Position numbers and translations under genes: made by a program
Notes under the pieces: generated by a model
The model's database searches: none
What the model saw: the letters and a program-made list of their open reading frames with translations, nothing else
Told to the model about the DNA's origin: nothing
Part shown: piece by piece, positions 2,774-56,462 of the stretch
How positions within the stretch are numbered: the first letter of the stretch is position 1
Layout of the letters: each line of letters begins with the position of its first letter
Source of the DNA: Actinomycetota bacterium
GTDB taxonomy: Bacteria; Actinomycetota; Thermoleophilia; Solirubrobacterales; 70-9
Direction: 5' to 3'
DNA: 64,000 nucleotides
Assembly: GCA_018268415.1 (NCBI GenBank)
Contig: JAFDWO010000008.1
Location: 1-64,000, forward strand

Positions 2774-4331
2774 CGAAATCCTTCGGTGGCTTCTGCTCGA
2801 ACCAGAGGTCGTCGTCCTCCGGTGCGTCTTCGAGGAAGCGCGGGGTGTCTTCGAGCACGTCCTCATGGCCCGTTTCCGGGTCGTACTCGGTCTCGTCCTC
2901 GTCGTCCTCGACGGGCTCCTCGGCCGCTTCGGCCTCCTCGGCACGGCGCAGCACTTCCTGCGAGGGGTCGTCCTCGTAGGGACGCTCCCGCTGGGACTCG
3001 AAGTCGAAGATGCCGCCGCCCTTCTCGGCGGGCTCGTCCTTGTACTGCGGCATTGCGAGGTGCTCGTCGGTCGGCGGCAGCGGCGCCTCGAGCGCCTGGT
3101 CGAGCTCGTCGGAGAGCCGCTGTTCGTTGAAGAAGTCGAATTCGGCGGAGCCCTCCTCGGGCTCGGCCTCGGCGGGTGGGTGCCCGGCGACCTCCGCGTC
3201 GGGCCCACGGCTTTCGAGCGGCGGCTGCTCGTAGAGCCGGGCTTGCGGATCGACCTCCTCGGGGGCGGGCGGCGCGGCCTGCGGATGCTCCTGGGCGGCG
3301 TCGACCAGCTCCTCGTCGGTCGGGCTCGCCTGCTCACCGGTCGCCGGTGCCGCGGCGGCGGCCTCCGCCTCCACGTGCGCCTGCACGTCGAACATCTGCG
3401 TCGGCTGGTCGGCGATCGCGTGGCGCTCCTCGGTGCTGGGACCGGGGTCGGCGACGATCTTGTGCTCGCCGGCGGGGTGATCCTCCTCGGCCGGCGGCTC
3501 GGGCGCCTCGTCGGTCGGGAGCGCGGCCTCGCGGGCGAGGGCCGCGGCGTCGGTGGTTGACGGGGCGGCATCGTCGGTTGCGAGGGCCGCGGCGTCGTCG
3601 GTGGGGCCCGCGGCCTCGGCGGCCCGCGGCGCGCCGGCGTCGTCGGTGGCGGGCGCGGCGTCGTCGCTCGGCGGCACCGGCCGCTCATCGGTGGTGGGCA
3701 TCGGCTCTTCGCTCGGCAGCGCCAGGGTCTGGTCGAAGAACACCGGACCGCCCTCCGCCGCGGACGGTGGGGGGGCCTCCCCGGACGGCGGTTCCGGGGC
3801 CTGGTCGAAGAAGGTCGGGGCGGTTTCCTCGGTGGGTGCCGCGGGTGCCTCGCCGGTCGGCGGCGCCAGGTCGGCGGCCCGGGCCTCGCCGGGCGGCGGC
3901 GGGAGCGGCACGCCGGCCGCGTCGCTCGGGCTCGGCGGCGGCGCCTGGGGGGCCGGGGACAGCTCGTCCTCGAAGGTCGGCGCGGCCCCCTCGCTCGTCG
4001 GCGCCTCCTCCCTCGGCGGCGCCGGCGCGGCGGCATCGACGGCGGGGCTCGGACCCGGATCCTCCTCGGCGGGCGGCGCCTCCTGCAGGTCGGTGAGGTT
4101 GGGACGGCGGCCGCTTCGCTCGCCTTCGTCGCCGATCTCCGGCACCTCGGCGGCGGCCTCGCCCGGGGACCTCAGGAACTCGGTCGGTGCCTCGGCGAAG
4201 GGGTCGAGGTCGTCCGGACGCTGGGGCGGGCCAAACGCCTCGTCCTCGAGCCGTTTCACCTCCGCATCGTCCGCGCCGTGGGCGCGCTTCAGTTCCAGGT
4301 GCTCGCGTATTGCGTCGTCAAGAATGCTCAT
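2763..4331 (-). CDS. Acidic, Pro/Ala-rich low-complexity protein of unknown function
   Basis: A 522-residue, very acidic and mostly disordered protein. The N-terminus (MSILDDAIREHLELKRAHGA) is predicted helical. The middle is long Ala/Pro/Glu/Asp-rich repeats such as PPSDDAAPATDD. The C-terminus is a short aromatic/acidic block ending WFEQKPPKDFDLD. I recall proteins with the same N- and C-terminal blocks in other Thermoleophilia, but know no function. The start is ATG at 4331 with GGGAG about 8 bases upstream. It leads an apparent operon with the ABC exporter genes. The low complexity generates long false open frames on both strands across 1.8-4.7 kb. Confidence 0.8.
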   Translation of the reverse strand: MSILDDAIREHLELKRAHGADDAEVKRLEDEAFGPPQRPDDLDPFAEAPTEFLRSPGEAAAEVPEIGDEGERSGRRPNLTDLQEAPPAEEDPGPSPAVDAAAPAPPREEAPTSEGAAPTFEDELSPAPQAPPPSPSDAAGVPLPPPPGEARAADLAPPTGEAPAAPTEETAPTFFDQAPEPPSGEAPPPSAAEGGPVFFDQTLALPSEEPMPTTDERPVPPSDDAAPATDDAGAPRAAEAAGPTDDAAALATDDAAPSTTDAAALAREAALPTDEAPEPPAEEDHPAGEHKIVADPGPSTEERHAIADQPTQMFDVQAHVEAEAAAAAPATGEQASPTDEELVDAAQEHPQAAPPAPEEVDPQARLYEQPPLESRGPDAEVAGHPPAEAEPEEGSAEFDFFNEQRLSDELDQALEAPLPPTDEHLAMPQYKDEPAEKGGGIFDFESQRERPYEDDPSQEVLRRAEEAEAAEEPVEDDEDETEYDPETGHEDVLEDTPRFLEDAPEDDDLWFEQKPPKDFDLD

Positions 4332-6873: not shown

Positions 6874-6915
6874 GGGCAACGCAGCCTATAGAACGGCATT
6901 GGCCGGGCCGGGCGC

Positions 6916-6941
6916 GGGGTGTGGCCACCCCCCGATCGGGG
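6916..6941. terminator. Overlapping GC hairpins between two minus-strand genes
   Basis: GGGGTG (6916-6921) pairs with CACCCC (6926-6931) and overlaps the perfect 12-bp palindrome CCCCGATCGGGG (6930-6941). It lies downstream of the membrane-protein gene and upstream of lpdA, and could end transcription from thiE. There is no T-run. Confidence 0.4.
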
Positions 6942-6994
6942 AACTCTGCGCGCTCAGGGGGTGATCCCGGTCGCGACCCGGCCGGCGCGCGCGG

Positions 6995-7546
6995 CTAGTG
7001 CGGCGGCATCCGTTCGAGCATCTGGATCCGGGCCATCGCCTTCACCATCAGCCAGAAGAGCGTCCCGGAGACGGCGAGGAGCCCGATCGTGACCGTGAAC
7101 TCGCCGACCGAGGTGGCGATCACGAGCAGCCCGTAGACCGCGGTGAAGATGAGGAACACCAGCACGACCTGGAAGCAGAGGACCGCCCAGTAGCGCGCCC
7201 GCCACATGCCCCAGGCGAGGACCCCCATGATCAAAGCGGGGGCGGCGACGGCGGTCAGCTTCGGGGTCGAGCCGTTCACCTTCACCCCGGCGGCGAAGGC
7301 GACGACGATCGAGATCGCCACCAGGGCGGCGAGGATCGCGGCGACCGTGACCACCGGCGGACGCTCGCCCGCGGCGAGCGGCACGAGCGCCTCGCGCGCC
7401 GCCCGGTTGCGGACCTCGGCCTTGGCGTAGCCCGCCTCCATGCGCTCGCGGGGGGTCTTGCGGGGGCGCGCCGTCGGGCCGCCGCCGCCGGCCGTGCCGC
7501 CCGCCATCCCGGCGCGCGCCTTGCGCTTCCGCGGGGCCTCAGCCAC
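6995..7546 (-). CDS. Small membrane protein of unknown function
   Basis: A 183-residue protein with a basic N-terminal cytoplasmic segment of about 60 residues (KRKARAG, TPRERMEAGYAKAEVR) and four hydrophobic segments at roughly 66-88, 97-113, 119-145 and 150-168. I do not recognise a named family, though similar basic-head/four-helix proteins occur next to thiE in related genomes as I remember them. The frame is open further upstream, but there it runs inside thiE. GTG at 7546 overlaps the thiE stop by 8 bases, indicating translational coupling, so I choose it. An internal ATG gives MAGGTAGGGG as an alternative. Confidence 0.7.
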   Translation of the reverse strand: MAEAPRKRKARAGMAGGTAGGGGPTARPRKTPRERMEAGYAKAEVRNRAAREALVPLAAGERPPVVTVAAILAALVAISIVVAFAAGVKVNGSTPKLTAVAAPALIMGVLAWGMWRARYWAVLCFQVVLVFLIFTAVYGLLVIATSVGEFTVTIGLLAVSGTLFWLMVKAMARIQMLERMPPH

Positions 7547-8258
7547 CCGGCGCCACGCCCCTCCGCGATCCCTCCACCTCGAACGCGCGCCGCAGCGCTT
7601 CGGCGGCAACCCCGGGGTCGGGGGCATCACGGATCGCCCGCACCACGCACATCCGCTGGGCCCCCGCGGCGACGACCTGGCCGGCGTTCAGCGGGCTGAT
7701 CCCGCCGATCGCGAAGAACGGTTTCGTGGCGACCTGCGCGGCATGCGTGACGAGCTCCAACCCGACCGCCGCCCGCCCCGGTTTCGTCGGCGTCTCCCAC
7801 ACCGGGCCGACGGCGAAGTAATCGATGTCGCGCTCCTCGGCGGCGGCGATCTGCTCCTCGGAGTGCGTCGACTGGCCGATGATCGCGTCCGGCCCGAGCA
7901 TCGCCCGCGCCTCCTCGACCGAGGCGTCGTCTTGTCCCACGTGCACCCCGTCGGCGTCGCAGGCGCGCGCCAGGTCGGGATCGTCGTTGACGATGAAGAG
8001 CGCCGAGTAGGTATCGGCGACGCGCCGGAAGGTGTCGGCCGCCCGTTCGATCTCCGCCCGCCCGAGCTTCTTCTCGCGCAGCTGCACGATGTCGACGCCG
8101 CCCCCGAGCGCCACCCGCAGCAGCGTTTCGAGGTCGACCCCGGCGGGCCGCGCATCGCAGACGAAGTAGAGGCGGGCGGTGCGCAGCCGCTCGCGCCGCA
8201 ACGGTCCTTGGGCCTCGGGGGGGGCAAAGCTCACTCCCCGATTATGGCCGGCGTTCAC
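7539..8258 (-). CDS. thiE: Thiamine-phosphate synthase
   Basis: A 239-residue TIM-barrel enzyme joining HMP-pyrophosphate to the thiazole phosphate to make thiamin phosphate. Family motifs are VQLREKKL (about 58-65), FIVNDDPDLA, ADGVHVGQDD, IIGQSTHS, DYFAVGPVWETPTKPG and AIGGISP, covering the pyrophosphate and Mg2+ sites. The start is GTG at 8258; the second in-frame GTG (8234) sits directly on a GGGGA run and is less likely. It is transcribed away from the TPP riboswitch that serves thiO-thiSG, so if it is thiamin-controlled it is not through that element. It overlaps the downstream membrane-protein gene. Confidence 0.96.
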   Translation of the reverse strand: MNAGHNRGVSFAPPEAQGPLRRERLRTARLYFVCDARPAGVDLETLLRVALGGGVDIVQLREKKLGRAEIERAADTFRRVADTYSALFIVNDDPDLARACDADGVHVGQDDASVEEARAMLGPDAIIGQSTHSEEQIAAAEERDIDYFAVGPVWETPTKPGRAAVGLELVTHAAQVATKPFFAIGGISPLNAGQVVAAGAQRMCVVRAIRDAPDPGVAAEALRRAFEVEGSRRGVAPGG

Positions 8259-10639: not shown

Positions 10640-10682
10640 GCCCCTGTAGCTCAGTTGGTTAGAGCGGCGGCCTTTTAAGCCG
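10640..10682 (+). other. attL: 5' half of tRNA-Lys(TTT)
   Basis: These 43 bases are identical to the first 43 of the complete tRNA-Lys at 56351-56424, from the first acceptor base through the anticodon loop into the 3' side of the anticodon stem. After 10682 the similarity stops abruptly and the 3' half of the tRNA is absent. The bases upstream (CTACGATGG) look like the original tRNA promoter. This is the left attachment site of the element ending at 56393. Confidence 0.93.
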
Positions 10683-20521: not shown

Positions 20522-23491
20522 TCAGATACCGATCGCGATGAACGGCGCCCAATAGCGGGGGTGTGCGAAGGGTCGGCCCGATTGGAGCCACGTATCTGCC
20601 GCGGACGGGGGAGCGCCGATGCGCTCACCCCTTTCACTCCGTCGAAGCGCTTCGGCGGCGAGCTGAGGATGCGCTGCGAGAAACGCCGCTTCCTCCTTGT
20701 AGGTCAATTCGCGGAGCCAGGCTTGCGCCCGACGCAGCGCCTCGGGCGGTCGGTGCTCATTCTCGAACATCTCCTCGTAGAGGCGCGTCATGAGGATCGC
20801 CGTGGCGAGATCGTCGACGGGCCAGAGGCTCGCCACGACGCACGCCGAGCCGGCTGCCAGGAACGCGGTACTGGTTGCGAAAGCCTCGCCCGAGGGTCCG
20901 GCAATATAGGGCAGGGCCGACTGACACGCCGAGACCACAACGAGCCGACTCTCGAGCGTCCCGCCGAGCTCCATCGCGGCCAGGTCGCCGTCGGCGAGGC
21001 AGACGACCATCGCCTCGAGATCGTAGAGGCCTCCGCCGGCGTGGCAGGCGAGATGAAGGTGCGACGCATCGGCGGCGTGGGTGCGTAGAAACTCCGACGT
21101 CGCGGCGGGTCCGAAGGCCAGGTCCGCCTCCCCGCCGACGAGTGCCGCGATTTCCTCGAGCTCCGGTCGCGCGCCCGGCAGATTCTCCTGTGGATCGGCG
21201 AGCCCGACGAGGCGCTGCGCCTTCGAGCTCTGCGCCGTGGCCCGTGCCAAGCTCGTCCTCACGAGCGCCCCGGAAGGTGCGTAGCGCACCTCGAACTCGT
21301 CGAGCAGGCAACGGCTGCCGCCCTCGGTGGACCAGGGAGCGGCCGCCAACGGCACGGTCGAGAGCGGGCCGCAGGGGACGAGCGTGACGCCGCGCGCACC
21401 GACTTCGCGGAGAAGCTCTGCGATCGGCTGCGCCAGCGCGGAGCCGAGCCAGCCGAGAGCGTCGACGATCGCCTCTTCGAGCGCGCCGTCTCGCTCGGCG
21501 GGGCTCGGCTGGCTGGGGTCTTCGCGGGCGATGCCGCCGATCGCCATGAGATAGCTCGGTCCCGCCTCCTCGACATCGAAGTCCGAGTCCTCCTCGTAGC
21601 CGCTGTCGGCCAGGAGACGCATGAAGACGAGGGTCGAAGAAGGCTCGGCGAGGTGGCGCGTGACGACCTTCTCGGATCCCGAATCGTCGACGAGGACGAG
21701 CACCGCTCCTGCTGGCGTCGGATTCACGTAGAGGAGCGGCCAGCCAGGCTCGGTCGCCGCAAGCAGGTCCTCGAGCCGATCGCCGGTGGCGAATTTCTCG
21801 AAGCCGGGCAATTTTCGGATCTCCACGAGGGCGTCCCGAAGCTCACGGCCTGGCGCATCGCCCCTGCCGAGAGGCGAGGAGGCCAGCTCGCCGAGCGCCG
21901 ATTCGTAGGCCCGACGCAATTCTCCGGGCAGTTCCCACAGACGCCCGCTGTCGCCACCGCCGAGACCGAGGCGACGGCGTAGCTCGCGGGTCCGCGCGTT
22001 CTCCAACGCCGTCGCCGCCTCGGCGGGTTGACCGTCCAACGAGAAGGCGAACGCGGCCCAGCGGCCGAGCTCGCCTACTTCCTGCGTCTCGTCGCGGCGG
22101 CGGGCGTCGTCACGGAGGCCCCGGAAGATCAGATCCGACGCGGCGAAGACCGAGCGATAGGCCTGTGCCGCCTCGTGCCATTCGCCGCGTCTGGCGAAAG
22201 AGGCTGCCAGGGCGGCGGCAACCTCGAAACAGAGCCGCGTCATTCGCGTGGGCGAAAGCGTTTCCAGCGCCCTCCTGCCGGCCTCGATCGCCGCCTCGTC
22301 CTCCTCGAGTCGACTCAACAGAAGACAGAGCTCGCCCCTGACCTGGGCGATCTCGACCCCGTCGGGGGCCTCGCCCAGCAGCTCTTCGGCGGCGCGTAGG
22401 TGCTCTGCGGCCTCGAGTCGCAGATTTTCATCGCGCTCCTCCTGCTCGTCTGCGGTACCGGACTCGATTGCTTCGGCGACTTCCATCGACGAATGATTCG
22501 TGGCGGTGCGTTTGGTCCGGGCGAGTTCGTGATGGGCGGCAGCGGCCATCTCGGGAGCTTCGTTGGTCATCGACCAGGCGATCACATCCTCGAAGACCGC
22601 CTCGCCCGCCGCGGTCGAGGATCTCTCTGCGCGGGCGTGGTTGACGAGCAGCCCTCCGAGGGTCAGCTTCGCGCGGATCCAGAGGCCCGGTGATCCTGCA
22701 GCTTCAAGGTCGTCCGCAGCTTCTTCTGCCACGGCGATCCCTCTCTCCAGGTTCAGCTTTCGATCGCCGTCTTCGCGACGCATCAGCGACTTGCCGAATT
22801 CGTACTCGAGCTGCCCGCGCAGCTCGAGCGGATCCTCGTCGGTGGCGAGCCCGATTGCCTCCTCGAGCATGTTGGAGGCGATCGCCAGGTTGTCGACCCG
22901 GTCACCGACCTCCCGCTCGGTGTAGAGGCGGGCAAGTTCGAGCATCGTTTCGAGCGAGGGCGCCCCGGCGCGGGCATAGGAGAGCGCCTCGTTCAGCGCC
23001 TCGATCGCCTCCTCCAGATTCTCCGCCCGGGATCCTTCCGGACGAATCTGCAGTAGTCCGGCCCTTAGTTTCTGTAGGAAGCCGACCTGGCCGCCGGCCC
23101 GGAGGCTTCGGCCCCGGGCGATCATCCGATCGTAGATTGCGATGGCCTCCTCCACATTGCCGCCGGCCAGCAGGTCGACCACAGGATCGAGCTCCTCGTC
23201 GAAGCTTTCGGTGAAGGTCTCGACCGCTTTGGCCTCGGCTTCCCGCCTCTCCCAGGCGCCCCGTGGGTCCGCCGGTGCCGCCGTGAGAAGGTCGAGCCAG
23301 GCGGCGTAGCTGAGGCCGCCGTGGCGCTGGGATCGTTTGCGAAGCAGGGTGCGGAGGACTGCTGACCGTACCTTTGGGTCGTTCGACGCGATCCAATTCT
23401 CGAATGCCTCGTAGCTCCGCAGACGTAGAAGGCTTTGGAGAACTTCGTCGATCGCCTCGTCGCTGCGTCCTGTTGCTTGTGTGTGCTTCAT
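20522..23491 (-). CDS. TPR-CHAT caspase-like protease
   Basis: 989 residues. The N-terminal 600 residues are helical repeats of TPR type (LAGGNVEEAIAIYDRMI, LEEAIEALNEALSYARAG and others). The C-terminal CHAT domain (about 640-989) has the catalytic pair in HLHLACHAGG (about H817) and VVVSACQSA (about C856), plus GEAFATSTAFLAAGSACVVA and a HPRYWAPFIAIG end. CHAT proteases are caspase-like; in several known defence systems they are activated by a partner and cleave host proteins. Here no obvious partner (for example a Cas7-11-like protein or a CHAT substrate gene) is adjacent. The start is ATG 23491; the gene is divergent from the sigma-factor leader. Confidence 0.9.
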   Translation of the reverse strand: MKHTQATGRSDEAIDEVLQSLLRLRSYEAFENWIASNDPKVRSAVLRTLLRKRSQRHGGLSYAAWLDLLTAAPADPRGAWERREAEAKAVETFTESFDEELDPVVDLLAGGNVEEAIAIYDRMIARGRSLRAGGQVGFLQKLRAGLLQIRPEGSRAENLEEAIEALNEALSYARAGAPSLETMLELARLYTEREVGDRVDNLAIASNMLEEAIGLATDEDPLELRGQLEYEFGKSLMRREDGDRKLNLERGIAVAEEAADDLEAAGSPGLWIRAKLTLGGLLVNHARAERSSTAAGEAVFEDVIAWSMTNEAPEMAAAAHHELARTKRTATNHSSMEVAEAIESGTADEQEERDENLRLEAAEHLRAAEELLGEAPDGVEIAQVRGELCLLLSRLEEDEAAIEAGRRALETLSPTRMTRLCFEVAAALAASFARRGEWHEAAQAYRSVFAASDLIFRGLRDDARRRDETQEVGELGRWAAFAFSLDGQPAEAATALENARTRELRRRLGLGGGDSGRLWELPGELRRAYESALGELASSPLGRGDAPGRELRDALVEIRKLPGFEKFATGDRLEDLLAATEPGWPLLYVNPTPAGAVLVLVDDSGSEKVVTRHLAEPSSTLVFMRLLADSGYEEDSDFDVEEAGPSYLMAIGGIAREDPSQPSPAERDGALEEAIVDALGWLGSALAQPIAELLREVGARGVTLVPCGPLSTVPLAAAPWSTEGGSRCLLDEFEVRYAPSGALVRTSLARATAQSSKAQRLVGLADPQENLPGARPELEEIAALVGGEADLAFGPAATSEFLRTHAADASHLHLACHAGGGLYDLEAMVVCLADGDLAAMELGGTLESRLVVVSACQSALPYIAGPSGEAFATSTAFLAAGSACVVASLWPVDDLATAILMTRLYEEMFENEHRPPEALRRAQAWLRELTYKEEAAFLAAHPQLAAEALRRSERGERIGAPPSAADTWLQSGRPFAHPRYWAPFIAIGI

Positions 23492-23787
23492 CGTCGGGAA
23501 TTGGACTCAAGGTTCGACAGCGACTTCGACCGTAGCGGCAACGCGATCGGCCTGGCCGTGCGTACCGCTCCGTGGGTGTCGCCGAGGTCTGACTGAGGAC
23601 TCGACTTCGAACCTCCTACGATCGTCGCCGGCCCTCGTTCGCCAATGAATTGAAAAGGGGCGACCGGGTGTCACTTTCGAGCGTGCTCAGGTGTAGGCCC
23701 CCATGCCGTTCGATCGTGATCGCGGGACGGCTCCCTTCTCCTGACTCTCCCGGCAGGCGGCGCACCTCGGAGGTGGCTCTTGCCTTT
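23492..23787. other. Intergenic region upstream of CHAT and sigma-factor genes
   Basis: It must contain the CHAT promoter (minus strand) and the promoter of the structured leader (plus strand). I see a small CACCT-CGG-AGGTG hairpin at about 23764-23776 but no convincing -35/-10 pair. Confidence 0.5.
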
Positions 23788-23970
23788 GGACCTCCGTCCG
23801 TCGCGGTCTGACTCGGCCACGTTTGGCACACGCGGGCGTCCCTGCAAGTCCCCTGCGGGGACTCCTCCGGCCCGAGCCCTGAGACGGGAACAGCATCCGG
23901 GGCTCGGGTTCCGGGCCCGCCCTTGCGTGTGCGTCTTCGGCCTCCGTCAACCCACGACGGACGGAGGTCC
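23788..23970 (+). promoter_or_regulatory. Structured leader RNA sequestering the ribosome-binding site
   Basis: A 183-nt leader ends 3 bases before the sigma-factor ATG. The outer stem is GGACCTCCGTCCGTCG (23788-23803), perfectly complementary to 23955-23970, which contains the GGAGG ribosome-binding site (23963-23967). Inside is a three-way junction: P1 GCACACGC/GCGTGTGC plus GGGCG/CGCCC (23826-23838 with 23918-23932, TT bulge); P2 AGTCCCC-TGC-GGGGACT (23847-23863); and P3 CCCGAGCCC/GGGCTCGGG (23871-23879 with 23900-23908), extended by CCGG/CCGG. This is the layout of a translational riboswitch or protein-binding leader. I do not recognise the class. Confidence 0.75.
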
Positions 23971-23973
23971 ACG

Positions 23974-24507
23974 ATGCAGGAGAAGAAGAAGACCGACGAG
24001 GTGCGCCGCCTGGCCGCCGAGATCTACGAGGAGCGCCACGACTATCTGCTGCGGATCGCGAGACGCAACGCGGCGAGCGGAAGTGATGCCGAGGAAGCGC
24101 TGCAGGAGGCCTTCGCCTACTTCATCGCAGGCTATGACCCGGACTCGGGCGCGCCGCCGCTGGCCTGGATCACGACGACGATGAAGCGCCGCTGCTGGCG
24201 CCTCCGCGACGGCGCCCACCTCGAGCGGCGGGCGGTGTCCGGCGCCGGTGCGCCGCACCAGGAGCCGACCGAGACGATCGACGGTGTCTCCTGCGGGGCC
24301 ACGCCGCTCGCGGACCGGGTCGCCGAGTGCGACGAGGCGCGCCGGAACCTTCGCCGCCTGAAGCCCGACCAGCGCACCGCGCTCGGCATGGTCGCGGCCG
24401 GCTGCTCCTACGAAGAGGTCGGCCGGCTCCGAGGCTGGAGCCCGACCAAGGTCAACCGCTGCCTGTACGAGGGACGTCGAGTACTCGACAGAGGCGCCAC
24501 CCACTGA
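23974..24507 (+). CDS. Sigma-70 family RNA polymerase sigma factor
   Basis: 177 residues with the two-domain ECF layout. Region 2 is at about 15-75 (HDYLLRIARRNAASGSDAEEALQEAFAYFI). A linker follows, and region 4 ends the protein (LKPDQRTALGMVAAGCSYEEVGRLRGWSPTKVNRCLYEGRRVL), a helix-turn-helix. It may act as a regulator of the element's own genes; small sigma-like proteins are common on actinobacterial elements. ATG 23974 follows GGAGG at 6-nt spacing; longer upstream frames run through the structured leader and are not credible. It lies back to back with the second TIR operon, whose 3' end is 46 bases downstream. Confidence 0.85.
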   Translation: MQEKKKTDEVRRLAAEIYEERHDYLLRIARRNAASGSDAEEALQEAFAYFIAGYDPDSGAPPLAWITTTMKRRCWRLRDGAHLERRAVSGAGAPHQEPTETIDGVSCGATPLADRVAECDEARRNLRRLKPDQRTALGMVAAGCSYEEVGRLRGWSPTKVNRCLYEGRRVLDRGATH

Positions 24508-36761: not shown

Positions 36762-39700
36762 ATGAGAATCGCCCGTCTCCTACCCCTTTCGCTCCTCGCC
36801 GCCCTCACGCTCGTCGCACTCTCTGCCGCGCCGGCCCCTGCCGCCCCGAGCTGGGGGGTCGGCATCGTTCACAAGAACCTCTACGGTGTCGGTGGCCTCG
36901 TCAGTCCCTATAGCGGCTCCGGGACCTCGTTTCCTCGCAACAGCGGCGGCAACGGCTACTCGATCCAGGTCACCAACACCTCGCTTGCCGCCGGCACTAC
37001 GCTCACCTGCGAAGCCGGCAGCTGGACTGGGGCCAACTCCTTCGAATACCAGTGGCTGCGCAACGGCGCCCCGATCTCCGGCGCGACCGGCAACACCTAT
37101 GCGACGACCGTCGCCGACGAAGGGACGGCGGTGCAGTGCAAGGTCACCGGCCGACCCGCCTCCGGCCCCGGCGCGTTCGTCCGTTACACCACTCCACGTC
37201 AGGTCGGTGCGATAGCCGGAGGGGCCGGTCTGCCGCGGGTCGAATACGAAGGATTCAAAATCGTGGCGAGCAACGGCGGTAACCCCGGCAGTCAGCTCAC
37301 CTGCATCCCCGCATTCGGCTGGCGCTGGCCGGACATGTCCTTCGTCTGGCTGGCCAACGGCGCTCCGATCCCTGGCGCCACGGGCTCGACCTACACGATC
37401 GCTCCCGGTGAGACCGAAGAGGCGATCCAGTGCCAGGTGACCGCGACCAACGCCTCGGGGACCGTGGTCGCCGCGACGCGGGCGCAGTTCACCGCCGTGC
37501 CCCCGACCCCGGCCGCGCCCTCCTCGATCCCGGCAACCGGCCCGACGATCGTCGGCGGCGCGGTTACTCTCGGCGGTTCCGAAGTAGGACAGAAGCTCAG
37601 CTGCACCGGGGGCCCAGCCACCGCGACCCTTGCCTACAAATGGCTGCGCAACGGCGTCGCCATCTCCGGCGCCAGCGCGTCCACCTACACGGTCGTCGGC
37701 CTCGACGAAGGCAAGGTCCTGCAGTGCCAGGTGACCGCGACCGGCCCTCTCGGCTCCGCCGAAGGGGCCAGCGCCAAAGTCAGCGCGACGAGATTGATCG
37801 CACCGCAGCCGGCGACCGCCCCGCCCGGCCCCGGGACGCCGACCGTGACCGGCACCGCGAACGTCGGCCAGGAACTGACCTGCGCGACGGGGACCTGGAC
37901 CGGGAGCCCGTCTTTCGCCCGCCAGTGGCTCCGCAACGGCGGACCGATTTCCGGCGCGACCAATGAAAAGTACCCTCTGACCGCTGCCGACCTGGGCGCC
38001 GATATCCAGTGCCAGGTCACGGGTAGCAACGCCGGCGGCAGCGCGGCTGCCGTCTCGGCTGTGAAACTGGCCGCCGCCCTGCCGCCGACCGCCAGTGTCA
38101 ATCCGGGCGTCAGCGGCACGCCGGCGGTCGGCGAAACGCTGACCTGCAACAACGGCACTTGGGCAAACTCGCCCAGCTTCGGTTACGAATGGCTGCGCAA
38201 CGGCACTCCGATCTCCGGAGCCACCTTCCAGAGCTACGAACTGGTCGCCGCCGATGAAGGCAAGGCCTTGCAGTGTCGGGTCATCGCCACCAACTCCGAA
38301 TCGACGGCGACGGCGGTGAGTGCCAACGCGGTGGTGTCGCCAGCGCCCGGCACCACGCCACCATCGCTGACCACCGTCGGCACCGTGACCGGCACCGCGA
38401 ACGTCGGCAACGAACTCACCTGCAACGCCGGCACCTGGGCCAATGCGCCCACCGGTTTCAGCTACCAGTGGCTGCGCAACGGCATCCCGATCCCCGGCGC
38501 CACCTTGACCACGCCGACGGAAACCAGCTTCAAGTACACGCTGGTGGCGGCCGACCGTTTCCAGTCGATCCAGTGCCAGGTGACCGCGACCAACGGTGGC
38601 GGCGCCTCGATCGCGATCAACGCGGGTGCCACGAATGGGTCGCGCTACGTGACCACCAACCCGCCGACCGCGACGGCGACCCTTGCTGGTGGCACGGTCA
38701 GCGTCAGTGTCGCCCTTCCTCCTGGGATGGCACTCGTTCGACAGGAAGAAGGGCCTTTCTTCCAGAACCTTTCTACCGATGACTTGGGATTTGTTCCGTT
38801 AACCGGATTCCCGGAAGAATCGACGCGGGCGAGGGCCATGATCATCGCCTCGGGTTGGAGCTGTGACACCACCACCGTCACCTGCACCCGGAGTTCGCAA
38901 CTCGAAGCTGGCGAATCCTTTCCGCCGATCGTCCTCCATGTGCGTCCCGGCCTCGAAACCGCTGACCGCGTGACCCCGGTCGTGACCGTTTCCGGTGGCG
39001 GTGCCCCTGCCGCCTCGACAGACGATCCGACGGTGATCGAGGCGCCGGTGCCGTTCGGTGTCACCTCGTTCCTCGTCAATGATGAAAACGAAGCTGGCAC
39101 TGCCTACTCACAGGCGGGTGGCCATCCCTTCCGCGCCTCGACCGATATCGAGGGCAATCTGACCAGCATCCCCAACGGCGGGCTTGTGCTTGCGGGTGGG
39201 GACTTCAAGTCGATCCAGGCGGATCTGCCGCCAGGATTCAGTGCAAACCTGCAGAACACTGCCACCTGTCGGGCGGTCATTGCGTCGGCCGTCGGTCAAC
39301 CCGACTGCCCTCTCGGCACGGCCATCGGCTACATCGATGTCGCGATCGGCGGCCAGGCCGCGCCCAACCCCGTCTTCAAGACGGCCGAACCGTACGCTTA
39401 TCGCGGCGGCCCATATGCCAGCCCGCTCTTCAATACGGAACCCGAAATGGGGTCCCCGGCGGCGCTCTCCTTCGAAGTCGAAAGCGTTCCCTACATCCTC
39501 GAAGCCAAGCTGCGCAGCAATGGCGACTATGGCATCACGCTGGGGAGTAAACAGGTTGCCGGTGCACCGGCGGTGAAGGCGGTTCGCGCCGTGGTTTGCG
39601 CGAACGGGGTCGAACTCACCCCTGGACCAGACTTCGGAAAGGCATGGAAGTGCGCCCCGTCCATTCCCGGTGCCCGTCCGGTCCTCAACAACCCTTCCTG

Positions 39701-48693: not shown

Positions 48694-49695
48694 ATGAGCA
48701 ATTCACACACACTCACTCCTTCGTCTTCCTTTTCACCGTCAGGTCCGAGTCCTGACCGCGCGGCCGTCTCCTACGTCGGCCGTCACGGCGCGGTCTCGAT
48801 CACGCACCTGATGCCCGCGCTCGGCCTCGGGCAGGCCGCGGCCTACCGGCGCGTCGCCGCGCTGATCGACGCCGGTCTGCTCGAGCGCCTCGACCTCCTG
48901 CGCGGCGAGCCTGCCCTGATCCGCGCCACCCGTGCCGGCCTCCGCTACGCCGGTCTTGGCATGGCACCCGCGATCGTCTCGCCCGGCTCGGTCGACCACT
49001 GGCTCCGTTGCGCCTCGGTCGCCCTCGACCTCGAAGCCCGGCACGGCGCCGGCCACGTGCTCACCGAGCGCGAGCTCCTCGTGGCCGAGCGCCATGAGGA
49101 ACGCCCGATCGCCTCGGCCAGGATCGGCGAGCTGCCGAACGGCGGACCGAGGCTTCATCGACCCGACCTCGTCGTCCTCCCCACGGACCACCCCCTCGTT
49201 CGTCTTCATCCAGAGGGCCTGGCCTTGAACACCCATCCGTCCGCCGGGAACCGGACGGGTGGGCCCGGGGAGGACGACGGGGTCTTCTCCGTGCGGGGAC
49301 GGTCCGAAGCCCGCGCCGGCCGAGCCGTCGCCGCGCATCCCCGGACGCGGGACCACCGCGCCGATGAGCGGATCGGCCCGGGCCTCGCCGCCCATGCCCG
49401 GACGCGGGAGCAGGCGCGCGAGATTCCCGGTGACGATGAGCGCGCGCGTGCGGGAGCAGAGGACATGGGCGTTGTGGCTATCGAGGTGGAGCTGACGCCC
49501 AAGAGCCCCAAACGCCTGCGCGAGATCATCCGTGGCTGGCGCAGCGCCTCCTGGGTCGCGGAGGTCCACTACCTCTGCGAGCCGGGCCAGACCCGCCGCG
49601 CCGTCGAGCGCGCGGTCGAGAAGCTCCACGCCTCCGACCGCATCCGTGTCGCGGATGTGCCACGCCGCGCCGACCGCCAGGAGGTGTCCCGATGA
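48694..49695 (+). CDS. Replication-relaxation family protein with in-frame repeat insertion
   Basis: 333 residues. The N-terminal winged helix (VSYVGRHGAVSITHLMPALG, AAYRRVAALIDAGLLERLDL) and the later split core (LHRPDLVVLPTDHP ... VVAIEVELTPKSPKRLREII) are typical of the replication-relaxation proteins found beside coupling ATPases on actinobacterial elements. Between the two core parts are about 95 extra residues (roughly 49180-49465), low in complexity, that include hairpin repeat H copy D and a partial copy. ATG 48694 is preceded by AGGG; GTG 48688 is also open. Its stop overlaps the ATPase start (ATGA). Confidence 0.8.
   Translation: MSNSHTLTPSSSFSPSGPSPDRAAVSYVGRHGAVSITHLMPALGLGQAAAYRRVAALIDAGLLERLDLLRGEPALIRATRAGLRYAGLGMAPAIVSPGSVDHWLRCASVALDLEARHGAGHVLTERELLVAERHEERPIASARIGELPNGGPRLHRPDLVVLPTDHPLVRLHPEGLALNTHPSAGNRTGGPGEDDGVFSVRGRSEARAGRAVAAHPRTRDHRADERIGPGLAAHARTREQAREIPGDDERARAGAEDMGVVAIEVELTPKSPKRLREIIRGWRSASWVAEVHYLCEPGQTRRAVERAVEKLHASDRIRVADVPRRADRQEVSR
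49393..49467 (+). repeat. Hairpin repeat H, copy D (inside a gene)
   Basis: CATGCCCGGACGCGGGAGCAG start, stem GCGCGCG/CGCGCGC, loop AGATTCCCGG-type, GCGGGAGCAGAGGACATG end. A half copy (CATCCCCGGACGCGGGA) lies at 49336-49352. Both are in the reading frame of the replication-relaxation gene. Confidence 0.78.
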
Positions 49696-51311
49696 ACGCC
49701 TCCCAGAGACACGTCACCGGCGACATCACCGCGTTCCTATGGGGCCTCGTCTGGCCGCTCCTCCTCGGCGCCGTGCTCGGCTGCGTCCTCGTCGTCCTCC
49801 TGCGGCGCCGCGGTCTGCGCTGGACCTGGAGCCTCCTCGGCCTGCCGCTCACCTACTGCGCCTGGTTCGGTCCCGACCGCCGCGCCGCCGTCGTCCTCGG
49901 CGCCGCCACGGTCTCGGCGATCTGGGTCGGTCAGCGCGTGCACGCCGAAGGGGTCGCGCTCGGAGGCGAGGAGGCCTCACACCAGCGCGACGCGATCGGG
50001 CCGTTCGGCTTCCTGCGCACCCGGCTCGCGAATCTCTCCGACCGCCGCCGCCGCCCGCGCGCCGACACCATGCTGATCGGTCGCGGCCGCCACGGCCGGC
50101 CCCGTCGCGTGCCGGTCGGCGGGCCCGGCCACGGCGTCCACGTGTTGGTGCCCGGCGCCACCGGGTCGGGCAAGACCGTCAGCCAGGCGAGGATCCTCGT
50201 TGCCCACGTCGCCCGGGGGCAGGGCGGGGTCGTGATCGACCCCAAAGACGATCCCGGGCTCTACGAGGAGACCGCCCGGGCCGCGGCCGCCGCGGGCGCA
50301 CGCCTCTGGACCTGGCGCCCCGACGGCGACTGCGTCTACAACCCGCTCGGGCGCGGCGGGGTCGACGAGATCGCCGACAAGGCGCTCGCCGCCCACGAGT
50401 GGTCGGAGCCCCACTATGAGATGGCGACCCGTCGCCTGCTCGGCCTGGTGCTGGCGACGATGCGCGACACCGGTCTCTGGCCGCCGACGCTCTCGGGTCT
50501 GGTCGAGAACATGCACCCCGACCGTCTCGACGCGCTCGCCGACCGGGCCGGGGACGAGGAGCTCGGCCGGGCGGTGCGCGCCTACGTCGACGGGCTCGAC
50601 AAAGGCGCCCGCTCGGACCTGCGAGGCGGTCGCGACCGCCTCGCCGTCCTCGCCGAGTCGGGGTTCGGCCGTCGTCTCGACCCTGCCTGCGGCGAGGGGG
50701 AGGAGATCGACCTCGCCGCCGCCTTCGAGCGGGGCGACGTCGTCTACTTCGGCGTCGCCGCCGACCGCTACCCGATCGCCGCGCGCCTCCTCACCTCGGC
50801 GCTGCTGGTCGACCTGATCGGCATCTCCGCCGCCCGCCAGCGCGCGCCACGGGGAGGGGTGGTCCTGATCGACGAGTTCGGCGCGGTCGCCGCCGATCTG
50901 GTCAGCCGCCTCTTCGCCCGCTCGCGCGGCGCCGGGATCAGCATGATCCTCGGCACCCAGTCGCTCGCCGATCTGAGGGCCGTCGGGGACGGCGCCGACG
51001 TCCTCACCGAGCAGGTGATCTCGAACGTCACCTACACGCTCGCCCACCGGATCCCCGACCCCGACTCGGCCGAACGGCTGGCCCGCATGGCGGGCACCGA
51101 GCCCGCCTGGGCGGTGACCCAGCAGGTCGAGGGCCACTCCTTGCTGCCGAGCGGCCAGGGGACGCGGACCAGGCAGCGCGACTTCCGCGTGTCGCCCGAC
51201 CGCTTCAAGTCGTTGCGCCCCGGCGAGGCCGTCCTCATCCACCCGACCGCGCCGCGGCCGGCCGAGGTGATCCGGGTGGCGCTCCCCCGCAGCGAGGAGG
51301 GGTCGCGATGA
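49692..51311 (+). CDS. TraG/FtsK-like coupling ATPase
   Basis: 539 residues. Two or three N-terminal membrane helices (FLWGLVWPLLLGAVLGCVLV, WTWSLLGLPLTYCAWFG) precede a cytosolic ATPase with Walker A GATGSGKT (155-162), PKDDPGLYEE, and Walker B GGVVLIDEFGAV. SMILGTQSLADLR is the post-Walker B sensor, as in VirD4/TraG coupling proteins. It would pump or recruit DNA at the membrane during transfer of the element. Coupled to the upstream gene by ATGA. No relaxase is visible. Confidence 0.88.
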   Translation: MNASQRHVTGDITAFLWGLVWPLLLGAVLGCVLVVLLRRRGLRWTWSLLGLPLTYCAWFGPDRRAAVVLGAATVSAIWVGQRVHAEGVALGGEEASHQRDAIGPFGFLRTRLANLSDRRRRPRADTMLIGRGRHGRPRRVPVGGPGHGVHVLVPGATGSGKTVSQARILVAHVARGQGGVVIDPKDDPGLYEETARAAAAAGARLWTWRPDGDCVYNPLGRGGVDEIADKALAAHEWSEPHYEMATRRLLGLVLATMRDTGLWPPTLSGLVENMHPDRLDALADRAGDEELGRAVRAYVDGLDKGARSDLRGGRDRLAVLAESGFGRRLDPACGEGEEIDLAAAFERGDVVYFGVAADRYPIAARLLTSALLVDLIGISAARQRAPRGGVVLIDEFGAVAADLVSRLFARSRGAGISMILGTQSLADLRAVGDGADVLTEQVISNVTYTLAHRIPDPDSAERLARMAGTEPAWAVTQQVEGHSLLPSGQGTRTRQRDFRVSPDRFKSLRPGEAVLIHPTAPRPAEVIRVALPRSEEGSR

Positions 51312-51495
51312 GAAAAAGCAAAAGCGCACCGCAACTGCCCGGGCCGGCTTCTCCGCCTCCGATTGTCGCGCCGTCGTCGCTCGCTCAAAGCCCCTCCTGC
51401 GTCGGGGCTCGGGCCGAGGCCCGCCCTGACGGGTTCCGCTCCCGCCGTCCGGCGCATTTCGGCGGCTATCGAAGCCGGTCGGAAAGGAGCAACGG

Positions 51496-51750
51496 ATGGG
51501 AATCGGAGGATCATGCGGAAGAGGGTGGCGGACGTTGAGCAGGACGCTCGTGAGAACGGCGGAGCTGCCGCGCTTCCTCTACACCCGTGAGGAGGCCGCG
51601 CGGGTTCTGGGGATGAGCCTGTCGCACTTCCAGCGCCACGTGCAGCCCTACCTGCGCTGCGTCTACTCGGGGTCGCTGCGGCTCTATCCGCCGCGCGAGT
51701 TGAAGCGCTGGATCGACCGTCAGGTCGACGGCACCGGCGTCCGGGGGTGA
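51496..51750 (+). CDS. Excisionase-like HTH protein
   Basis: 84 residues. The C-terminal 50 residues (FLYTREEAARVLGMSLSHFQ, LRLYPPRELKRWIDRQV) are the MerR-type winged helix of Xis/helix_turn_helix_17 proteins. It should direct the integrase to excision and may regulate it. ATG 51496 has AGGAG at 6-nt spacing; TTG 51535 is a shorter alternative. Its TGA is overlapped by GTG 51747, so it is coupled to the integrase gene. Confidence 0.85.
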   Translation: MGIGGSCGRGWRTLSRTLVRTAELPRFLYTREEAARVLGMSLSHFQRHVQPYLRCVYSGSLRLYPPRELKRWIDRQVDGTGVRG

Positions 51751-51755
51751 GTGCG

Positions 51756-53039
51756 ATGACAGTCGAGCTTGCCGTCCGCAGGCCGGTCGACACCACGACG
51801 CGCTACGAAGGCGTCTTCGCCCGCCATCAGCTCTGCTGCGCCAAGGCACTCGACAGGGAGAGGCGCTGTACCTGCACCCCGAGCTACTACGGCAAGGTCT
51901 GGGACCCGGCGCTCGGCCGCTATCGGGTGACCGAACGCCGGCCCGGGGTCCTCGAAGCCAAGGCGATGAGGGACGACCTCCTGCGCCAGGTCCGTGACGG
52001 CACCGTTTCCGAGCCCGAGCGGAAGGCGGAGAAGGAGGAGGAGCCCGAGAGCCCCACCTTCGCGGCGGGGCACACCGAATTCATCGCCCAGTGCAAGGCG
52101 GGCGTGGCGCGGACCAAGAAGGGGAAGCGCTATACGCCGAAGTCGATCAAGAGCCTCGACTCGGGACTGAAACGGGTCCCCTCGGAGATCAGGGAGCGCC
52201 TGATGTCGGCGGTCACCAGGGGCGAGCTGCAGAAGATGGTCGACGGCTTCATCCGCGAGGGACTCTCGAGCGAACGGATCGCGACGATCGTGAACGCGGT
52301 TCGCTCGCTCTATCGCTGGGCGATCAAGCGGGACCTGGTGAACGAGAATCCCGCCGCCCCGGTCGACATCCCCGTCGACGAGGTCGAAGGGGCGCATCGG
52401 ATCGCCACGCCCGGCGAATTCGCCGATCTCCTCGATGCCATCCCGGCCGAGGACGCACTCGCCTGGGCGATCGCCGGCTACGCGACGGCACGCCATCAGG
52501 AGATCGAGGCCCTCGACTGGGAAGAGGTCGACTTCGAGGAGGACGCCCTCCTGCTCGCCGGTGACGACGGCGCCCGCAAGTCCGAAGCCGCCCGCCGGGT
52601 CGTCCCGATGGTCAGGCAGCTGCGGGTGAGGATGCACGCCGAGTGGGAACGGCAGGGACGGCCGAGGTCCGGTCCGATCTTCAAACCGAAGCGCGCCGAC
52701 AACAAATCCGGTACCGCCGACCTGAACGCGGTCCTGCGCCGCATCACCAAGAAGTGGGAGGACCTGGGCATGGTGCCGATCAACTTTCAGGACTCACGGC
52801 ACACGGCGGCGACCTGGCTTGATCATGCCGGTGTCTCGCCGAAAGTCTCCTCGGTCATCATGGGCCACAAGGCGCCGAAGCTGAAGCAGCATCCAGAGGC
52901 GGCGCCGATCACCCTGAAGCGCTACACCCATGTCCTCGAGGGCGAGATCGAGCGTGCTGGCCGCCAGCTCGAGGCCTTCCTGACCGAGCGCGAAGCCGAG
53001 GAACGCGAGGCGCCCGTAGAGCAGGCCGTGGCCGCCTGA
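51756..53039 (+). CDS. int: Tyrosine recombinase (integrase)
   Basis: 427 residues. A SAM-like N-terminal binding domain (about 95-195) precedes the catalytic domain: first Arg in YATARHQEIEAL, box II INFQDSRHTAATWLDHAGVS with RH, IMGHKAPKL, and the nucleophile in LKRYTHVLEGE. The residue usually His in HxxRH is Gln here. The N-terminus (RHQLCCAKALDRERRCTC) is Cys-rich and may bind the arm sites. This is the enzyme expected to recombine the 43-bp tRNA-Lys sites. ATG 51756 has GGGG 8 bases upstream; GTG 51747 is an alternative. Confidence 0.93.
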   Translation: MTVELAVRRPVDTTTRYEGVFARHQLCCAKALDRERRCTCTPSYYGKVWDPALGRYRVTERRPGVLEAKAMRDDLLRQVRDGTVSEPERKAEKEEEPESPTFAAGHTEFIAQCKAGVARTKKGKRYTPKSIKSLDSGLKRVPSEIRERLMSAVTRGELQKMVDGFIREGLSSERIATIVNAVRSLYRWAIKRDLVNENPAAPVDIPVDEVEGAHRIATPGEFADLLDAIPAEDALAWAIAGYATARHQEIEALDWEEVDFEEDALLLAGDDGARKSEAARRVVPMVRQLRVRMHAEWERQGRPRSGPIFKPKRADNKSGTADLNAVLRRITKKWEDLGMVPINFQDSRHTAATWLDHAGVSPKVSSVIMGHKAPKLKQHPEAAPITLKRYTHVLEGEIERAGRQLEAFLTEREAEEREAPVEQAVAA

Positions 53040-54401: not shown

Positions 54402-54455
54402 TGTTAAGTTTTATGGCAAAAAAACTTGACACGACTGTCGGTCGTTCCCTATCCT
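54402..54455 (+). promoter_or_regulatory. Promoter and operator of the abiE pair
   Basis: TTGACA (54426-54431) with CTATCC or TATCCT 17-18 bases downstream (54449-54455) is a good promoter. The start would fall at about 54461, next to GTG 54462, so the mRNA is probably leaderless. TGTTAAGTTTT (54402-54412) and AAAACTTGACA (54421-54431) are inverted repeats (10 of 11) that overlap the -35. AbiEi antitoxins bind inverted repeats to autoregulate. Confidence 0.75.
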
Positions 54456-54461
54456 CCAACG

Positions 54462-55199
54462 GTGGCACAGGACCCCAAAGACCCCGGCGCCAAGCCACCG
54501 AAGCCGAGCACCGCCGCGACCGTGCGCGATCGGGTCGCCCGCGGTGAGGCCGACTACTGGCGACACTCCGACTTCGCGGACCTTCCCGCCTCGGCCGTCG
54601 CGATGACGCTCTCGCGCCTGGCCGGGGAGGGCGTGCTGCGCCGCGTCGGCAAGGGCGTCTACTACCGCCCGCATCAGACCTCGCTCGGTCCGAGCGGCCC
54701 GGCGGGGACCGCGGTCGCCGCCCAGACCCTGCGGGCGCCGGTCCATCCCGCCGGCCTGAGCGCAGCCAACGTCCTCGGTCTCAGCACCCAGAATCCCCGC
54801 CGGGCCGAGTACGCGACCCCCGCCGCGGGGCCACCGACGGGCCTGCGGGGCGCCGTCGTCCACACCGGCCGCCCGGCCGGCCGCGCCGGTCTGTCGGCCG
54901 AGGACGGCGCGATCCTCGAGACGCTCCGCGAGCGCGCCCGCCACAGCGACCTGTCGTCGCGGCGGACGATCGAGCGCCTGCTTCGACTGCTCTCCGAGGA
55001 GGATCGCTTCGGCAGGCTCGCCGCCGCCGCGCTCGAGGAGCCACCGCGGGTGCGGGCGATCCTGGGCGCCCTCGGCGAGGAGCTGGGGATGCCCGAGAGC
55101 AGGCTCGCGCCGCTGCGCCGGAGCCTGAATCCGCTCAGCCGCTTCGACTTCGGGGCGCTCGGCTCGCTGCGCTTCGCCGACCGCTGGCAGGCGAGGTGA
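54462..55199 (+). CDS. abiEi: AbiEi-type antitoxin
   Basis: 245 residues. The N-terminal winged helix of AbiEi/DUF6088 reads RDRVARGEADYWRHSDFADL, AMTLSRLAGEGVLRRVGKGV and YYRPHQT. The C-terminal antitoxin region is helical. It should neutralise AbiEii and repress the operon through the inverted repeat upstream. GTG 54462 is directly at the predicted transcript start (leaderless). Its stop overlaps the AbiEii start (GTGA). The pair sits between the integrase module and attR. Confidence 0.87.
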   Translation: MAQDPKDPGAKPPKPSTAATVRDRVARGEADYWRHSDFADLPASAVAMTLSRLAGEGVLRRVGKGVYYRPHQTSLGPSGPAGTAVAAQTLRAPVHPAGLSAANVLGLSTQNPRRAEYATPAAGPPTGLRGAVVHTGRPAGRAGLSAEDGAILETLRERARHSDLSSRRTIERLLRLLSEEDRFGRLAAAALEEPPRVRAILGALGEELGMPESRLAPLRRSLNPLSRFDFGALGSLRFADRWQAR

Positions 55200-56158
55200 G
55201 GCTCTTCGAACACCCCGACTTCGAGCAGGCGATGCTGCGCGCCGCCGAGCATCACGGTCTCAGCGAACAGTTCATCGAGAAGGACTACTACATCACCGAG
55301 ATCCTGCGGATCTGTGTCGGCGAGCTCGGCGAGAAGGTCGTCTTCAAGGGGGGCACCAGTCTCTCCAAGGGTTGGGGGCTGATCACGCGCTTCTCCGAGG
55401 ACGTCGACCTATTCGTCAATCCCGCCCTCTTCGATCCACCGCCGGGGAAGAACAAGCTCGACAGGATCCTCAAGGGCCTGACCGAAACGGTCGCCGGGTA
55501 CCCGCCGCTGGACTGGAGGCGGGAGGAGGGTGAAACCATCAAGGGCCTGGGTCGGAACGACGTCCTCGCCTACGAGAGCCGTTTCGCCGACCTGCCCGGA
55601 CTGCGCGCCGCGATCCGCCTCGAGCCGGGCATCCAGAGCGGCAGCTTCCCGACCAGTGAGGAGCCGATCACCTCGCTCCTGGCCCGGTACCTCCAGGAAG
55701 AGTCCGTCGAGGGCTTCCTGGAGCTCGACGACATCCAGGGCTTCGACATGCATCTGCTCCACTTCCGCCGCACCTTCGTCGAGAAGATGTTCGCGCTGCA
55801 CGGCAAGGTCGAGCGCCTCGTGGCCGAAGGCCATCCGTTGGGGCGCGACGCCCGCCACTACTCCGACCTGCACGTGCTCGCCGAGCAGCATGAGGTGCGA
55901 TCGATGCTCGCATCGCCGGAGTTCGAGGAGATAAAGCTCGACTACGACGAGCGCAGCCGACAGTTCTTCCCCAGGGCCTATCGACCGCCGTCCGAACTCT
56001 CCTTCAAGGACAGCCCGGCGCTGTTCCCGGACGGCGGGCTGCGAGCACGCCTCGAACCCGAATACGAAGAGGAGTGCGCCCTGCTCTTCTCCGATCAGAG
56101 CTTCGCGAGCTTCGAGCAGGTGCTCGCCGGATTCGCGGAGATCCGTGCACTTCTCTGA
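55196..56158 (+). CDS. abiEii: AbiEii-type nucleotidyltransferase toxin
   Basis: 320 residues. The nucleotidyltransferase motif is VFKGGTSLSKGWGL (52-58 core) with RFSEDVDLFV (SEDVDL 67-72), supplying the catalytic aspartates of AbiEii/MenT-type toxins, which modify tRNA ends. IEKDYYITEIL upstream is also typical. With AbiEi it forms a type IV toxin-antitoxin and phage-abortive pair. GTG 55196 overlaps the AbiEi stop. Confidence 0.93.
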   Translation: MRLFEHPDFEQAMLRAAEHHGLSEQFIEKDYYITEILRICVGELGEKVVFKGGTSLSKGWGLITRFSEDVDLFVNPALFDPPPGKNKLDRILKGLTETVAGYPPLDWRREEGETIKGLGRNDVLAYESRFADLPGLRAAIRLEPGIQSGSFPTSEEPITSLLARYLQEESVEGFLELDDIQGFDMHLLHFRRTFVEKMFALHGKVERLVAEGHPLGRDARHYSDLHVLAEQHEVRSMLASPEFEEIKLDYDERSRQFFPRAYRPPSELSFKDSPALFPDGGLRARLEPEYEEECALLFSDQSFASFEQVLAGFAEIRALL

Positions 56159-56350: not shown

Positions 56351-56424
56351 GCCCCTGTAGCTCAGTTGGTTAGAGCGGCGGCCTTTTAAGCCGCGCGGCG
56401 CGGGTTCGAGTCCCGCCGGGGGCA
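56351..56424 (+). tRNA. tRNA-Lys (anticodon TTT), attR
   Basis: A 74-nt cloverleaf: acceptor GCCCCTG/CGGGGGC (one G-U), D arm GCTC/GAGC, anticodon stem GCGGC/GCCGC with loop CTTTTAA (TTT), T arm GCGGG-TTCGAGT-CCCGC, discriminator A, no CCA. Its first 43 bases are the att core shared with 10640-10682. Its 5' half and promoter come from the element, its 3' half from the chromosome. Confidence 0.96.
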
Positions 56425-56462
56425 CTCTCGTCGGGTGGTGACGCGGGGCGCGGCGCTTTGGC

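Follow-up and report, generated by a model that had tools for sequence, protein, structure and literature searches.

A structured RNA leader that precedes a sigma-factor gene in a 64,000-nucleotide stretch of a Solirubrobacterales genome (Actinomycetota bacterium, GenBank assembly GCA_018268415.1, contig JAFDWO010000008.1, positions 1 to 64,000 of the forward strand; hereafter the window) is, on comparative sequence evidence, a member of a real RNA family and more than a one-off. We propose that it probably represents an undescribed class of cis-acting mRNA leaders of integrative conjugative-type elements in Solirubrobacterales, in which an outer helix, P0, would form the off state and a factor common to the element would set translation. 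The control of integrative elements is known mainly through repressors and transcription. If the proposal is true, a structured leader shared by sigma, regulator, single-stranded DNA-binding protein (ssb) and excision genes would constitute a post-transcriptional regulon of a mobile element and, given that the element in the window carries CHAT, TIR and AbiE genes, its activation signal may bear on the defence cargo. The helix that masks the Shine-Dalgarno (SD) sequence and the invariant junction letters define exact mutants, which makes the proposal testable now.

The leader in front of the sigma gene

The leader lies in the intergenic region that separates a divergently oriented CHAT gene (20522-23491, minus strand; CHAT 9.9e-46) from a gene for an extracytoplasmic function (ECF)-like sigma factor of 177 amino acids (23974-24507, plus strand; Sigma70_r2 2.3e-9, Sigma70_r4_2 1.1e-4; TIGR02937 3.9e-8, below its cut-off); past the sigma gene there is a TIR gene. 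All leader features lie on the plus strand. P0 is an exact 16-bp duplex (23788-23803 with 23955-23970), or 17 bp when the pair T23787-A23971 is counted; its distal anti-SD arm (23787-23803) and its 3' arm (23955-23971) form a perfect duplex of -36.0 kcal/mol. The 3' arm contains the SD sequence GGAGG (23963-23967), which pairs with the 5' flank at a computed probability of 1.00, and the ATG of the sigma gene (23974) follows six bases 3' of it.

Inside P0 lies the conserved core, comprising P1, P2, P3, the junction and a tail to GTCAA (23823-23950), which is the span matched by covariance model R3 (77.9 bits; E 2.2e-17 for the window when the filters are switched off). P1 has an outer segment (23826-23833 with 23925-23932), backed by covariation, and an inner segment, GGGCG-T-CCC (23834-23842 with 23913-23922), backed by the alignment; the inner pairing 23834-23838/23918-23922 is separated from the outer segment by a TT bulge (23923-23924), and in the homologue L079 the inner segment is aligned over its entire length as GGAGATCCC/GGGATCTCC. 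The joining segment J12, UGCA (23843-23846), leads into P2, a 7-bp hairpin of sequence AGUCCCC-UGC-GGGGACU (23847-23863; pairing 23847-23853/23857-23863). P3 is a 9-bp hairpin (23871-23908; pairing 23871-23879/23900-23908), the loop of which is larger in the window member and in its counterpart from genome G003, and it is followed by J31, UUCC (23909-23912). The unconstrained minimum free energy of 23780-23985 is -125.6 kcal/mol, against -91.2 +/- 4.8 in 200 dinucleotide shuffles (z = -7.2, with no shuffle reaching the real value). An earlier note, made from the window's sequence alone, had described a 16-bp stem over the sigma GGAGG that encloses a three-way junction of a two-segment P1 with a TT bulge, a 7-bp P2 and a 9-bp P3; both the stem, which can be extended by one pair, and the junction hold at the coordinates that it gave.

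Perfect 16-bp inverted repeats within 250 nt were absent from 30 Markov-1 random windows of equal size. The real window holds a few further perfect long inverted repeats, so the P0 stem alone is not decisive, and it is homology and covariation that decide. Such further repeats speak for chance palindromes in a high-GC intergenic region, a reading that is refuted by the homologues, the covariation and the model matches described below and to which we give practically no weight. A second perfect 16-bp inverted repeat lies outside P0 (23754-23769/23997-24012), where it pairs the 5' region with approximately codons 9-13 of the sigma gene and encloses the start codon; the G003 leader has a shorter version, CGGCGCAC/GTGCGCCG, in the same place.

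We also looked for a competing structure with a free SD. A second, proximal anti-SD, CCTCCGTC (23941-23948 with 23960-23967), can form a local hairpin of -18.0 kcal/mol as an alternative to P0, and this hairpin also masks the SD, so that opening P0 by itself may leave the SD masked.

Members of the family and the genes behind them

With a first covariance model, built on three leaders, the genome of the window proved to hold two more copies, one before an integrase gene and one before an excisionase-like gene, and genome G007 one copy, between the C-terminus of an excisionase and an integrase. The six members used at this early stage all adopt the same architecture when folded without constraint. 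Rebuilt as R2 and R3, the model yielded 20 members at E < 0.002 in 12 genomes, which span five genera and three families of one order, Solirubrobacterales; the organism names of the related contigs are mostly those of Solirubrobacterales or Solirubrobacteraceae metagenome-assembled genomes. In the 20-row alignment pairing is kept in 88.8% of cells, and 19 of the 25 modelled pairs show double changes with pairing kept (90 cells); pair 3 of P2, for example, is CG in nine members, GC in eight, UA in two and AU in one. The covariation score is 0.438, compared with 0.142 in shuffled alignments and at most 0.090 when partners are slid. A covariance search had been suggested in the earlier note as a check, and in it the stems do covary. 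The junction letters are near-invariant, with UnCAA on one side (UnCA 5' of P2 in nearly all members) and UUCC in 20/20.

The nearest homologue of the sigma factor, from G003 (49% protein identity), has the same leader upstream. Between G003 and the window, DNA identity is 81% in the leader core (125 positions), 61% in the coding sequence (CDS), 46% further upstream and 42% in the region of the P0 5' arm. The masking helix reads CCTCCGTCCTCGCTGG/CCAGCGAGGACGGAGG in G003 where the window has GGACCTCCGTCCGTCG/CGACGGACGGAGGTCC; both arms are altered, and pairing is thus retained through compensatory changes. A third and a fourth sigma leader occur in G001 and G026, so that the nearest homologous sigma genes carry the same leader and not the unrelated upstream DNA that would have spoken against it. 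Sigma homologues below 40% identity were also searched for the leader, with no match.

The idea of a device specific to the sigma gene, as in the earlier note, did not survive, given that the same leader also precedes unrelated genes of integrative elements, among them those for excision, ssb and a regulator. Four of the 20 members precede ECF-like sigma genes, five excisionase or integrase genes, three ssb, three a winged-helix regulator (Trans_reg_C), four a small protein and one a NADAR gene, the last being the least certain member because the tail of the model overlaps its start codon. The domains found in the target genes are SSB, Trans_reg_C, HTH_17 and integrase. Every member has its downstream gene in the same orientation as the leader, and the distance from core end to start codon is 20-28 nt in 16/20.

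Orientation and spacing bear on whether the conserved unit could act as DNA, either as a recombinase, excisionase or replication site or as a cruciform-extruding mobile repeat. There are several copies per genome, three of them adjoining integrase genes, and wobble counts (G-U versus A-C) choose no strand. However, a same-orientation gene behind every member at mostly fixed spacing is not what a DNA site would lead one to expect, P0 is unrelated in sequence between members yet pairs, unlike an inserted repeat or a protein site, and on the G003 contig the genes seen next to the sigma, small-protein and ssb copies include no integrase. We consider a DNA element very unlikely. A mobile repeat of the miniature inverted-repeat transposable element (MITE) or repetitive extragenic palindrome (REP) type was likewise set aside, as the P0 arms are not conserved in sequence, orientation is constant and spacing mostly so.

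Genes neighbouring the leaders include those for ParB, an ArdC-type antirestriction protein and a TrwC relaxase. The G003 contig (L057) carries its three leaders (6901-7757 and 3762-3858, minus strand) within 4 kb around a ParB gene. The small protein belongs to a family with the pattern GRYD..RxLxGxRIDG..V..D.P..GR.Y.VE.G that recurs behind the leader (L057 6587-6943, minus strand; L111; L113; L114), with no NCBIfam match for the two members scanned and no Pfam match for the one member scanned; in L114 the start as used lies in a different frame from the one conserved in the family, which may reflect an indel or another start. In two genomes (L105, L110) a leader-bearing winged-helix regulator is followed by a ParB gene, which suggests that the two form a conserved regulatory module.

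Masking of the ribosome-binding site and proposed control

The 5' arm masks the SD in each of the four sigma leaders, at a computed pairing of 0.75-1.0, and P0 contains the SD in most non-integrase members, these four included. Pairing of the SD with the sequence 5' of the core averages 0.51 for a member's own flank versus 0.25 for swapped flanks (16 members), a value reached in 5 of 20,000 permutations, and when the flanks are ranked by P0 duplex energy the true one comes within the top four of 20 in 14/20 members. Own-flank pairing, together with the spacing to the start codon, supports a leader that masks the ribosome-binding site (RBS). An SD sequestered by a leader helix and a covarying structure in the 5' untranslated region (UTR) at fixed start spacing are also features of translational riboswitches and leaders, and the layout of a translational riboswitch or protein-bound leader, read from the window in the earlier note, gains support accordingly from the masking computed in the sigma leaders.

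We suggest that P0 is the off state, in which translation would be blocked, and that the junction is recognised by a factor common to the element's genes, which may be a metabolite but is no less likely to be an RNA-binding protein. This factor would lock or loosen P0 during RNA synthesis, and the translation of the sigma, regulator, ssb and excisionase/integrase genes would thereby be set jointly. The narrower version, a ligand-sensing RNA class in which the same sensor before sigma, regulator, ssb and excision genes lets one cellular signal act after transcription to free the entire mobilisation programme for translation, is possible but rather doubtful.

RBS-masking stems insulate some transposase genes from read-through transcripts. 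The leader might likewise insulate and not sense, with P0 silencing the gene in read-through transcripts from outside and a promoter within the leader giving RNA that lacks the 5' arm. The class sits on integrated elements, P0 at -36 kcal/mol is strong enough for an insulator, and a transposase of an insertion sequence in Pseudomonas putida is under the control of mRNA structure and small RNAs (sRNAs; PMC8450116). A plain stem would do for this purpose, however, which leaves the conserved three-way junction with its invariant UUCC and UnCAA unexplained, and no counterpart of the ECF-like GGAAC box read in the window's P3 loop was seen in G003, for which reason an internal ECF-type promoter in P3 was dropped. 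Insulation is thus unlikely, and we favour a trans factor that is common to the genes and is read by the junction, because a plain insulating stem needs no invariant three-way junction. The leader as an upstream open reading frame or peptide was rejected on inspection of the alignment, as indels between members are not multiples of three.

Several points weigh against control by a masking P0 and a common factor. The alignments used for the pairing counts were fitted to the model structure, against which the slid control and the unconstrained folds are a partial guard; the 13 G-U and 15 A-C combinations by themselves leave the folding strand undecided; and most members come from metagenome assemblies. 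The computed ensemble gives no preference to the masking pairing in the G003 ssb, G031 ssb2 and G044 members, and the P0 of the window looks over-stable for a simple equilibrium switch. The excisionase/integrase members form P0 mostly upstream of the SD, so in these the RNA must work in another way or by the stability of P0. Long RNAs of high stability are targets of processing. An action at another step, whether transcription attenuation or antitermination, RNase processing or anchoring of an sRNA or antitermination complex of the element, would fit three of the five excisionase/integrase members, in which 46-85 nt separate the end of the core from the start and P0 is not clearly over the SD. 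The 20-28 nt spacing in 16/20 members and the non-random SD pairing point instead to translation, and we consider another step improbable for the class.

Host element, distribution and related leaders

An exact 43-bp repeat links an attachment (att) copy of the 5' part of tRNA-Lys (10640-10682) to the intact tRNA-Lys at the other att end (56351-56425), both on the plus strand, and from the repeat at 10640 and 56351 the intervening 45.7 kb is read as an integrated element. The att direct repeats at tRNA-Lys are accompanied by a tyrosine integrase gene (51747-53039, plus strand; Phage_integrase 5.3e-11). Usually it is the 3' end of a tRNA that is duplicated at att; here it is the 5' part. Both window leaders (23823-23950 and 51365-51472) lie inside the element; the second (plus strand; R3 57.4 bits, E 3.3e-12) precedes the integrase and an excisionase-like HTH_17 gene (51496-51750, plus strand; HTH_17 8.5e-5, slightly below its cut-off). 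A third, weak match (38032-38101, 19.3 bits) falls inside a CDS and was left out. The element also contains a TraD-like coupling ATPase (49692-51311), an AbiEi/AbiEii-like pair (54426-56158), two TIR genes, the CHAT and sigma genes and a DUF433/DUF5615 toxin-antitoxin-like pair. The sigma factor does stand beside CHAT and TIR genes, as noted earlier, and these two are cargo of the same element.

Among 396 genomes sampled across Actinomycetota, matches occurred only in two genomes of the host's family, under stricter filters that may have passed over weak members. When two members served as nucleotide queries against phages and plasmids, one 30-bp match was the sole result. Of five pattern scans of viral contigs two were empty, and the four matches from the other three are put down to chance; the L081 match is antisense in a terminase-like gene, and L120-L122 were rejected by the covariance model. 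A pattern match in G575 was also taken as chance, and L115, which is without UUCC, was rejected.

Searching the window with Rfam 15 gave no family at gathering threshold except tRNA, the best sub-threshold matches being at chance level, and the loci of four further members gave no match at E up to 1. The earlier statement that no known class has these motifs thus holds for Rfam in the five members scanned, and no description of the leader came up when the open literature was searched by term, a negative that does not prove absence. The int-alpA RNA motif is also found near integrase and excisionase-type genes; no Rfam family, among which int-alpA is expected if curated there, matched the five members. 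We therefore regard the leader as a candidate new class among the structured leaders that mask the RBS, a kind already known.

In layout the leader comes closest to icd-II (PMC8632094) and dauA (PMC11109978), reported three-stem junctions whose closing stem holds the RBS. These share with the leader a three-way junction, a closing helix over the SD, a narrow taxonomic range and proposed translational control. The leader differs in its additional outer helix, P0, around P1, and in preceding six kinds of gene on mobile elements where icd-II and dauA each precede one metabolic or transport gene; the targets are other ones, and the conserved letters are apparently different, as far as the lack of an Rfam match allows one to judge. 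Like the mobile/repeat sequence candidates (MRSC; PMC11109978), the leader is present in several copies per genome and near integrase genes, but its gene orientation and start spacing are near-constant and P0 pairs without sequence conservation, which is the behaviour of a leader rather than of a mobile repeat. The ISPpu9 transposase of Pseudomonas putida is controlled by mRNA structure together with antisense and sense sRNAs (PMC8450116), and is likewise a mobile-element gene restrained by structure in its 5' UTR; in place of the antisense and sense sRNAs, the leader described here has a conserved junction common to several genes.
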